Under the pieces are notes generated by a model. The model searched no databases, was not told the DNA's origin, and saw only the letters and a list, made by a program, of their open reading frames with translations. From Phycisphaerales bacterium (lineage in GTDB: Bacteria > Planctomycetota > Phycisphaerae > Phycisphaerales > UBA1924): a DNA stretch of 64,000 nucleotides. Each line of letters begins with the position of its first letter. Position 1 is the stretch's first letter. The position numbers were made by a program, and so were the translations under genes. The DNA lies in the NCBI GenBank assembly GCA_029260265.1, contig JAJDDO010000024.1:1055458-1119457 (forward strand). Reading direction: 5' to 3'. Below, piece by piece: positions 59,084-61,171 of this stretch.

Positions 59084-59395
59084 ATGAGTACTGGAAGCAG
59101 GATTCGAATTCGGATGGAAGCGTATGACCATATTGCGCTCGACTCATCGGCTCGTGAAATTGTCGATCACGCCAAGCGAACAAATGCAAAGGTCAAGGGC
59201 CCGGTGCCATTGCCGACCCGCATCGAGCGATACACCGTTCTGCGTGGGCCGTTTGTCGATAAAAAATCTCGTGAGCAGTTTGAGATCCGCACCCATAAAC
59301 GGATTATTGACATCCATGAGCCCAATGCACGCACGGTCGAAGCGCTCAACAGGCTCGTCGTTCCAGCGGGCGTCTTTGTAAAGATCAAAGCATAA
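59084..59395 (+). CDS. rpsJ: Ribosomal protein uS10
   Basis: The 103-residue protein has [10 protein letters not shown] (normal start of S10), [38 protein letters not shown] and the end [16 protein letters not shown]10 sits in the 30S head and, with NusB, in antitermination complexes. It opens the S10 operon here, with no tuf or fusA upstream. It is separated from rplC by a 153-base structured spacer containing a terminator-like hairpin. Confidence 0.95.
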
Positions 59396-59402
59396 TACAG
59401 TT

Positions 59403-59440
59403 CAGGATTGCTTGAGAGAGCAGTCCTGGTTTTCTTTTTG
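59403..59440 (+). terminator. Terminator-like hairpin between rpsJ and rplC
   Basis: CAGGATTGC (59403-59411) pairs with GCAGTCCTG (59420-59428), nine pairs with one G-T, and is followed by GTTTTCTTTTTG. It starts eight bases after the rpsJ stop. It could end rpsJ-only transcripts or act as an attenuator. Confidence 0.7.
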
Positions 59441-59548
59441 TATGAACCGACTTGCCCTTGAAAAGAAGGGGTAAATCAAAAACTTCCTCTGTCAGCATCT
59501 GCTGGCACGAAGCCGAACCCGTCGGAATACGGGATGAAGGATTCGAAA
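59441..59548 (+). promoter_or_regulatory. Structured leader of rplC
   Basis: Three further stem-loops follow the terminator-like hairpin: CCCTT/AAGGG (59455-59470), GTCAGC-ATCT-GCTGGC (59491-59506, with one G-T) and CCCGT-CGGAAT-ACGGG (59518-59533), the last ending four bases before the Shine-Dalgarno AAGGA at 59537. Such a leader would suit control of the rest of the operon by a ribosomal protein. No strong promoter was found inside it. Confidence 0.5.
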
Positions 59549-60235
59549 ATGACACTTCCGAGCAAAGGCGCCCACATGCTGGGGCAGAAGATTGGGATGA
59601 CCCGCGTTTATAACGACGAGGGTGTTTCATTCCCGGTGACCATCATCAAGCTTGATCCCAACACGGTGACCCAAGTGCGGACCCCCGAGGTTGATGGATA
59701 CTCTGGCGTTCAGATTGGTGCGGGCGATCTCAAACCTCGGAACTCGACGATGCCGATGATCGGGCACGATGCCAAGGCTGGGGTTGCTCCAAGGCGGAAG
59801 CACTCCGAGTTCCGTCTTGAGGACGGGAAGCACAGCGACTATGAACTCGGACAGACCATTTCGGTTGATGTGTTCAATGATGTGAAGTTTGTCGATGTGA
59901 TCTCGATCAGCAAGGGCAAGGGCTTTATGGGTCCCATGCGTCGGTATGGCTTTAAGGGCCAGTTGGCGTCTCATGGTGTTGAGCGGAAGCATCGTTCGCC
60001 GGGTTCAATCGGTGGACACGGCAACAATGCCGGTAAAGCCGGTCGGATCAAGAAGGGCAAGCGGATGGGCGGGCATACCGGGAACACACGGAATACCATG
60101 CGGTCCTTGGATGTTGTTCGGGTGCTTGAAGATGAAAATATTCTTTTGGTGAAAGGCCCGGTTGCTGGGCACGCCACCTGTTGGGTCGAGGTTCGTCCTG
60201 CGACCAGATTGAATCGTTCGAAACAAGGAAAATAA
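59549..60235 (+). CDS. rplC: Ribosomal protein uL3
   Basis: L3 is recognised by GQKIGMTRVYNDEG, the GKGFMGPMRRYGFKG and SHGVERKHRSPGSIGG core, KKGKRMGGHTGN and NTMRSLDVV. The 228 residues are normal, with a short extension before the usual start. The ATG at 59549 is chosen because AAGGA lies seven bases upstream. The gap to rplD is 258 bases, which is unusual for this operon. Confidence 0.95.
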   Translation: MTLPSKGAHMLGQKIGMTRVYNDEGVSFPVTIIKLDPNTVTQVRTPEVDGYSGVQIGAGDLKPRNSTMPMIGHDAKAGVAPRRKHSEFRLEDGKHSDYELGQTISVDVFNDVKFVDVISISKGKGFMGPMRRYGFKGQLASHGVERKHRSPGSIGGHGNNAGKAGRIKKGKRMGGHTGNTRNTMRSLDVVRVLEDENILLVKGPVAGHATCWVEVRPATRLNRSKQGK

Positions 60236-60493
60236 TCCTTGCTGAGTTGATATTGGGGGTGGGGGTGTCAATACTCTCCACCCTGAGATCGGCAGGTCGT
60301 TGAATGACGAAACCACCGAATGGAATTTGGATATTGCCCCGAGAAATCGGGAGTCAATGCCGAGTCCAAGCCATGCGACGAACGGCCCATTAAGGGTTGG
60401 CCTGAGAAGGCGATATTCGGAGCTGGCAAGGGCGAGTGAACCGGGAGCTGGAGCTTCTGGGGATTCATGAGGCGTGCGGAAGGGTAAAGACCA
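60236..60493 (+). ncRNA. Candidate structured RNA / leader between rplC and rplD
   Basis: The 258-base gap contains GGGTGGGGG with CTCTCCACCC (about 60258-60293), TCGT-TGAATG-ACGA (60297-60310), CCCGA-GAAA-TCGGG (60338-60351) and GCCT-GAGA-AGGC (60400-60411). The last two carry GNRA tetraloops, which are enriched in folded RNAs. The sequence ends in GGAAGGG nine bases before the rplD start. A 29-codon open frame (60304-60393) lacks a ribosome-binding site. The role is unknown; an L4- or other r-protein-binding leader is the first guess. Confidence 0.5.
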
Positions 60494-61171
60494 ATGGATG
60501 TCCCCGTCTACACAATGAGCGGTTCGCAGAGCGGCACCATGCCGATCGACGAGATTGCGCTCGGTGAAATAGTCAATGCTGACCTGCTCAAGCAGGCATT
60601 CGTGATGTACCACGCGAATCGGCGTCAGGGTTCTGCAAGAACCAAGAACCGATCAATGGGCGCGTACACGCATAAGAAGCTCTACAAACAGAAGGGGTCC
60701 GGCAACGCTCGGCATGGTGACAAAAATGTCAACCTGTTCCGTGGTGGTGCGATGACCTTCAATAAGAAGCGTACTCGGGCAGACTATCACAAGTCGATGC
60801 CGATCAAGATGCGCCGCAAGGCGAATCGCAATGCTCTGCTCTCGAAGATCCTTTCTGACGAAATCCGGATCATCGACGGGCTCAAGTTTGCTGCTCCAAA
60901 GACCAAGGACTTTGTTGCGTTCCTCGATGCCATCAAGGTTGATCGTTCGGCGTTGGTCGCTCTCTCGGGTGATGCGGAGAAGAGCAAGAATGCTCGTCTT
61001 TGTGCTCGGAATATTGAGGGCGTTCAGATGTGTCGTTCGGATCAGCTCAATGCGTTTGAGATGCTCAATAACCGGTTCTTGGTGATCGACAAGTCTGAGC
61101 TTGAGGCTTGGCTGACCGGCCCGAGTTCGCAGACTGGCAAGATTGTCAAATCTGACGGGGGTGCCAAGTAA
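60494..61171 (+). CDS. rplD: Ribosomal protein uL4
   Basis: L4 is recognised by the conserved loop (RQGSARTKNRSMGAYTHKKLYKQKGSGNARHGDKNVNLFRGGAMTF pattern) and KMRRKANRNALLSKI. The 225 residues are normal. L4 lies near the exit tunnel of the 50S subunit and in E. coli is the autogenous repressor of this operon. GGAAGGG at 60478-60484 is the ribosome-binding site. Its stop overlaps the rplW start by one base (TAATG). Confidence 0.95.
   Translation: MDVPVYTMSGSQSGTMPIDEIALGEIVNADLLKQAFVMYHANRRQGSARTKNRSMGAYTHKKLYKQKGSGNARHGDKNVNLFRGGAMTFNKKRTRADYHKSMPIKMRRKANRNALLSKILSDEIRIIDGLKFAAPKTKDFVAFLDAIKVDRSALVALSGDAEKSKNARLCARNIEGVQMCRSDQLNAFEMLNNRFLVIDKSELEAWLTGPSSQTGKIVKSDGGAK

Follow-up and report, generated by a model that had tools for sequence, protein, structure and literature searches.

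What occupies the 258 nt between rplC and rplD in the S10 operon of a Phycisphaerales bacterium, and does it act on the gene that follows? The window, which is the whole stretch of 64,000 nt of DNA that was analysed, carries the operon on the + strand in the order rpsJ, rplC, rplD, rplW, rplB, rpsS, rplV, rpsC, with the last five genes assigned by reading translations. A sequence-only reading had described the gap as structured, with a G-rich first stem and two GNRA hairpins, and had proposed a new ribosomal-protein leader or an embedded small RNA. Its coordinates for the gap were exact (the last base of rplC is 60235, the first of rplD 60494), and the G-rich stem (60255-60283) and both hairpins (CCCGA-GAAA-TCGGG at 60338-60351 and GCCT-GAGA-AGGC at 60400-60411) were found again. 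The genes and the parts of the RNA are given in window coordinates.

59084-59395, + strand: rpsJ, head of the S10 operon
59549-60235, + strand: rplC (ribosomal protein L3), preceding the gap; translation could also begin in frame at 59534
60236-60493, + strand: rplC–rplD intergenic RNA, whole gap, from gene ends and fold; the match of model R1 spans 60286-60503
60255-60283, + strand: P1, G-rich hairpin, outside model R1
60287-60321, + strand: P2, outer stem 60287-60292/60316-60321, inner stem 60295-60299/60308-60314
60338-60351, + strand: apical part of P3 with GAAA loop, a variable hairpin
60355-60476, + strand: closing helix, 60355-60361 with 60471-60476, enclosing P4 and P5
60360-60366, + strand: CCGAGTC block
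60370-60427, + strand: P4, 60370-60373 with 60424-60427
60400-60411, + strand: GAGA tetraloop hairpin within P4
60428-60435, + strand: AAGGGCGA block, consensus AGGCGA
60441-60460, + strand: P5, variable hairpin
60478-60484, + strand: likely rplD ribosome-binding site GGAAGGG, read from the sequence
60494-61171, + strand: rplD (ribosomal protein L4), the gene preceded by the RNA

Fold and coding potential of the gap

When the 271-nt stretch from 60230 to 60500 was folded, its energy was -107.1 kcal/mol compared to -86.8 ± 4.7 kcal/mol for 200 dinucleotide shuffles (z = -4.31), and none of the 200 shuffles did as well. The gap is non-coding and structured beyond chance. The sequence-only reading had named a translated region, a decayed gene and a lack of conservation as outcomes that would speak against it, and none of these was borne out. 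Each reading frame of the window's gap contained stops, the distance from CCGAGT to the end of the stretch taken fell in all three phases among relatives (33, 26 and 23 of the 82 motif-bearing loci, out of 87 up to L093), and what is conserved is base pairing. Nothing was found in favour of a translated region or a decayed gene, which is about as improbable as any explanation we considered. The Rfam search proposed in that reading was carried out with Rfam 15; positions 60100-60600 matched no family even at E≤10, and at the gathering threshold the whole window gave two tRNAs only. RNase P RNA was rejected as an identity for the gap; the genome's RNase P RNA sits on another contig.

The G-rich stem P1 appeared variable among relatives when the gaps were read. 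GNRA hairpins with at least four pairs occurred in 55 of 109 related gaps, with a mean of 0.80 per gap compared to 0.22 in mononucleotide shuffles; the GNRA loops are enriched, not universal, and not part of the conserved core. A sigma-70-like promoter match was also seen at 60247-60275 (TTGATA, 17 nt, AATACT), extending into P1, and TTGAT...CAATAAT recurred in several gaps from the same genus. Three such matches were found in the stretch compared to 1.6 expected, and they may be due to chance.

Conservation and covariation within the order

A search for L4 found rplD in 148 of 151 related genomes, and the rplC–rplD region was taken from 110 of them (L006-L115); 23 of these loci belong to other families of the order and the rest to the window's family, f1. 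The gap could be measured in 109 of the 110, since L016 lacked rplC. All 109 gaps were long, from 130 to 527 nt, where a length can be up to 3 nt too large if the ATG of rplD lies one codon upstream of the alignment offset. Apparent non-ATG starts of rplD in other families were rejected as an artefact of the same offset, with the ATG one codon upstream. CCGAGTC, CCAAGTC or CCGAGTT was found in 105 of the 109 gaps (exceptions L060, L079, L087 and L091). The order of the blocks was fixed: P2 as nnCGGnAGGTC..hairpin..GAAACCnCCGnn, followed by CCGAGTCGATTCCG, CGGATAGGCGA, AGGCGTCnGACGAGG and the ATG of rplD. The conserved core consisted of the two-part P2, CCGAGTC, P4, AGGCGA and a helix that closes beside the ribosome-binding site.

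When 72 gaps were aligned freely with MAFFT, the consensus structure was poor, and alignment A1 took its place, built from 22 same-family gaps with the window's copy excluded. For the 24 named pairs in A1, 90.3% of the cells paired, compared to 28-46% in slid controls, and 15 pairs were changed on both sides. None of 500 shuffles reached the paired cells, the doubly changed pairs or the covariation score of A1, and 39 of 500 reached its number of pair types. A covariance model based on A1, R1, matched the window's copy at E 1.8e-12, a value that is rough like all R1 E-values due to a shortened calibration. It matched 94 of 100 rplC–rplD loci at E≤0.01, or 72 of 78 when the 22 training copies were excluded, in a search that left out L016, L088, L096, L098, L101, L105, L109, L112, L114 and L115. 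Within the family 85 of 86 loci were matched (the miss was L082), and in other families 9 of 14 (misses L095, L106, L107, L108 and L113). The 3′ end of the match extended into rplD in L099, L100 and L104.

RNAalifold applied to the 94 R1 matches predicted 15 pairs in P2 and P4, and 14 of these showed compensatory changes. In the 94 copies, double changes were found at 10 of 11 pairs in P2, whose inner stem carries an AA bulge (60311-60312), and at 4 of 4 pairs in P4. A 21-pair structure, with the inner P2 pairing from RNAalifold and the closing helix added, paired in 93.6% of the cells compared to 78.7% when shuffled and 31-43% when slid; 18 of the 21 pairs were doubly changed, which was reached by 1 of 500 shuffles. 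Alignment A2 was fitted to R1 and for this reason favours the R1 structure, and the count from the unfitted A1 agrees in direction. The covariation shows selection on pairing, as expected of a ribosomal-protein leader. The sequence-only reading had called for conservation and covariation to be examined in related genomes, and the outcome, both in model matches and in compensatory pairs, was strongly positive.

The other families of the order were aligned separately (A4, 21 gaps). Their plan was the same but shorter, with AAGGCC..GGAACC inside the outer stem of P2 showing two-sided pair changes and 93% of the P2 cells paired. After P2 came CGACAA, CCGAGTC or variants, P4, GGCGA, a hairpin and AGGTGA. 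For the whole named structure, no shuffle equalled the paired cells, the doubly changed cells or the covariation score, and the number of doubly changed pairs was reached by 101 of 500; the P4 columns are off by one in many rows, and these figures therefore understate P4. Model R2, based on A4, gave 54 matches at E≤1 over 100 loci. Two of them, L206 (E 0.42) and L156 (E 0.86), lay downstream of the rplD start and were taken as false. R2 matched same-family loci outside its training, for example L063 at 3.8e-8 and L027 at 2e-4, and gave no match to the window's copy (L006). The evidence was weaker in families f5 and f6, where R2 matched L115 (3.8e-5), L096 (0.005) and L106 (0.42), and where L101, L105, L112 and L114 gave no model match and showed reduced forms by eye. 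Judged from these alignments and models, the gap RNA is one copy of an RNA common to the window's family and to most other families read in the order.

Half of 80 named contigs carried the element (L138-L176 and L179). Their titles were mostly Phycisphaerales, Phycisphaerae and other planctomycete names, and 38 of the 40 had an R1 or R2 match at the site at E≤1 (only 0.1-0.2 in L166 and L179), with the element in L156 and L168 assigned by reading. The named and unnamed sets overlap (L138 is L032), and the counts are not additive. The other 40 named loci (L177, L178 and L180-L217) gave no R1 match at E≤1 and, with R2, the false L206 match only. Their rplC–rplD gaps ranged from -4 to 132 nt, with 36 of 38 measurable gaps below 90, and their titles included Sedimentisphaerales, Pirellulaceae, Gemmataceae and Chloroflexi. 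Four of these 40 (L178, L189, L190 and L194) carried Phycisphaerales titles; thus the boundary of the element follows sequence groups and not the submitters' labels.

Whole genomes were searched as well. Across the class, R1 matched 43 of 397 genomes with one match each, 42 of them in the same genus or family, and G039 was the sole match among the same-order genomes listed. The filters were stricter here, and at least three same-family genomes (G086, G113 and G066) were missed though their gaps (L083, L084 and L077) match. Across the phylum, R2 matched 11 of 392 genomes, ten in the order and one false, and missed the window's genome, further genomes of f1 and those listed from f5 and f6. Among the 54 matches from both searches (43 from R1 and 11 from R2), 31 were examined; 30 lay between rplC and rplD. 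The remaining one, in G692 (L228) from the phylum search, was taken as false, being inside a long ORF with no rplC or rplD nearby. By these sequence searches, the RNA is well supported, common to one bacterial order and not found in the tested relatives outside that order.

These positions bear on two other explanations. A size of 130-527 nt and long-range pairing would suit a ribozyme, or a mobile intron that became fixed in the gap and decayed, yet no Rfam family matched even at E 10, each matched genome had one match, at the same position wherever checked, and the structure takes in the start region of rplD itself; we regard this origin as very improbable. The embedded small RNA of the sequence-only reading would be released from the mRNA of the S10 operon and act in trans; the large size, the stability and the sequence conservation of the RNA are in its favour. 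What speaks against it is that the conserved part continues up to the ribosome-binding site and start codon, that no terminator-like site was found in the gap, and that there was no true match away from rplD (30 of the 31 examined were at rplD and the other was false). We hold a small RNA to be unlikely. The other half of that proposal, a cis-acting leader, fits because the conserved RNA ends at the rplD start.

The closing helix and the start of rplD

The closing helix forms where GACnGCC (in many genomes; CAAUGCC in the window) before CCGAGTC pairs with GGCGUC or GGCGUG. The latter strand lies directly 5′ of the rplD ribosome-binding site, and in the window a single base (60477) separates the two. 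Of the 86 same-family loci, 19 lacked an anchor and had been dropped beforehand; over the remaining 67, pairing within the own genome exceeded all 2000 permutations. On A2, the closing helix alone beat 500 of 500 shuffles in paired cells, doubly changed cells and covariation score, whereas its doubly changed pairs were reached by 109 of 500 and its pair types by 198 of 500. When the helix was slid by +2, 70.7% of the cells still paired, without covariation. The three outer pairs were unformed in 25 of 78, 15 of 79 and 39 of 80 sequences that have bases there. In other families, NCC could pair with GGN of the ribosome-binding site in 34 of 45 rows (permutation p 0.07; 45 rows from 49 loci after 4 identical ones were dropped, with L096 kept though anchored at the wrong CC). 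This is only suggestive of the CCG block pairing with the ribosome-binding site itself in those families.

The region from -14 to +3 of rplD was unpaired with a probability of 0.486 compared to 0.463 with shuffled upstream sequence (Wilcoxon p 0.002), and its openness was below the shuffled-upstream value in 45 of 109 loci. Default sequestration of the rplD start was not supported, as the start region was slightly more open than with shuffled upstream sequence. Ribosomal-protein leaders often, though not necessarily, resemble the site of their ligand in rRNA, and no sequence mimicry of 23S rRNA was detected here. Four blocks compared to the genome's own 23S rRNA (Rfam positions 15-2044) did no better than shuffles, as 20, 68, 93 and 23% of 60 shuffles did as well, and the best match of R1 to the 23S locus had E 1. 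The best match in that R1 search, at E 0.047, was short, covered a start-codon region in the RNase P locus L116 and was taken as chance.

The fold ends at the start of a ribosomal-protein gene, in an operon that L4 controls in E. coli, and for this reason a feedback leader is the best reading. We consider it probable that the gap RNA is a cis-acting ribosomal-protein leader in the Phycisphaerales S10 operon, with L4 as the likeliest ligand, repressing translation of rplD. A conserved RNA is present, it lies directly ahead of rplD, and its helix closes beside the ribosome-binding site; binding of a protein, L4 as that protein, and repression by its binding would follow from the model. L4 is suggested as candidate by gene position and by what it is known to do in other S10 operons. 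Assuming that the RNA is co-transcribed with the operon, the rpsJ-rplC-rplD-rplW-rplB mRNA would carry a folded domain just ahead of rplD. When free ribosomal protein, most likely L4, outnumbers rRNA, it would bind the core made up of P2 with its AA bulge, CCGAGUC, P4 and AGGCGA, all of them conserved. The bound protein would stabilise the helix that closes beside the ribosome-binding site, or in other families possibly over the site. Translation of rplD would fall as a result, and that of rplW and rplB with it through coupling. A simple version of repression is opposed by the lack of resemblance to 23S rRNA at Rfam positions 15-2044, the lack of default start hiding, and the weakly supported pairing between NCC and the ribosome-binding site in other families. 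Closure stabilised by a repressor would be compatible with all three results.

The evidence from structure and position names no ligand, and the element could instead be an rplD cis-regulatory leader with another ligand (L3, L23 or L2) or with none, for example one that recruits ribosomes independently of rplC translation. The slightly more accessible start would suit a standby or initiation role, and rplD probably needs its own initiation because 130-527 nt lie between it and rplC in the 109 measured loci. On the other hand, L4 leader binding has been established or proposed in other S10 operons (PMC7247131, PMC7186457), and it is not obvious why a pure initiation aid would need a fold of such size and conservation. 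We regard this alternative as rather unlikely, with L4 feedback the preferred reading.

Relation to known leaders and to the rpsJ–rplC gap

The leader of the E. coli S10 operon is among the closest known systems. According to PMC7186457, L4 is the autogenous regulator of that operon and acts on its 5′ UTR through inhibition of translation or transcription. The S10 leader described there and the gap RNA have in common the operon, a structured RNA, L4 as ligand or candidate ligand, and ribosomal-protein feedback (PMC7186457). In contrast to that 5′ UTR, the gap RNA lies ahead of the third gene, rplD, and lacks an Rfam match; the comparison is by location and role. None of the copies checked had the E. 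coli-type location: in the window, as in the 30 true matches, the RNA follows rplC and precedes rplD. L4 is also described as binding the E. coli tnaC-tnaA spacer and lowering TnaA translation (PMC7186457). This spacer resembles the gap RNA in being intergenic, about 220 nt long, bound by L4 and able to lower translation of the next gene (PMC7186457), but it is not part of a ribosomal-protein operon, and the likeness is one of description.

Table 1 of PMC7247131 lists an L4 leader proposed for Archaeoglobi, and the main text of that paper does not contain the word Planctomycet. This candidate shares with the gap RNA L4 as proposed ligand and the rplC-rplD-rplW-rplB genes (PMC7247131). It differs in being archaeal and, as the listed genes begin with rplC, in presumably lying upstream of rplC, and the comparison is by description (PMC7247131). 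The Rhodopirellula-1 candidate motif, considered here from one table row, is listed for Proteobacteria and Planctomycetes (PMC2864571). The Pirellulaceae locus L209 lacked the element, with no R1 match and a 50-nt rplC–rplD gap.

Inside the window, a terminator-like hairpin with a T-run was seen at 59402-59439, between rpsJ and rplC, and similar hairpins followed rpsJ in many relatives by reading. It is possible that the hairpin marks an attenuation site or an operon boundary; four terminator-like sites were found in the stretch compared to 2.3 expected. Planctomycetes outside the group had, by reading, another short hairpin in the rpsJ–rplC gap, approximately GTCGCGTGAGCYTNATCGCGCGAA, which recurred in L192, L200, L204, L206, L207, L210 and L212.

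A second candidate RNA was observed ahead of rplC, at 59483-59512, built as a stem, a CUCU internal loop, a hairpin, two bases and a stem. Its outer stem varied in a compensatory manner (CUUC/GAAG, GAUC/GAUC, GUUC/GAAC, CGUC/GACG, GCUC/GAGC and GGUC/GACC). The strict pattern was found in 24 of 63 gaps from the order compared to 0.5 expected from mononucleotide shuffles, with L032 and L138 being the same sequence, and in 2 of 37 other gaps compared to 0.5 expected. Apart from the window, it was seen in L007-L009, L015, L020-L023, L025, L026, L028, L029, L032 and L034, and in L138, L143, L146, L148, L156, L166-L168 and L179. Tentatively, two successive lineage-specific RNAs, one before rplC and one before rplD, may set L3 and L4 separately and replace the single 5′ leader of the E. 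coli type, with the rplD element binding protein via a fold unlike the rRNA site; we would put this extended scenario among the doubtful ones.

Ribosomal-protein feedback RNAs are known mostly from Proteobacteria and Firmicutes. Some act within an operon: the S7 site between rpsL and rpsG is an intercistronic ribosomal-protein leader and, as is proposed for the gap RNA, a regulatory RNA ahead of the gene of its own ligand, in another operon and for another protein. Searches of the open-licence literature turned up neither a structured RNA in the rplC–rplD gap nor a Planctomycetota ribosomal leader. By kind, the element is a candidate ribosomal leader, a conserved structured RNA directly upstream of a ribosomal-protein gene, with a fold, a size and a position within the operon that are its own. 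Probably this is a control element not described before, which adjusts the amount of L4 and is located at an unusual place within a highly conserved ribosomal operon. If L4 binds, the RNA would represent another solution to L4 feedback and a good case of protein–RNA recognition that arose without an obvious copy of the rRNA site.
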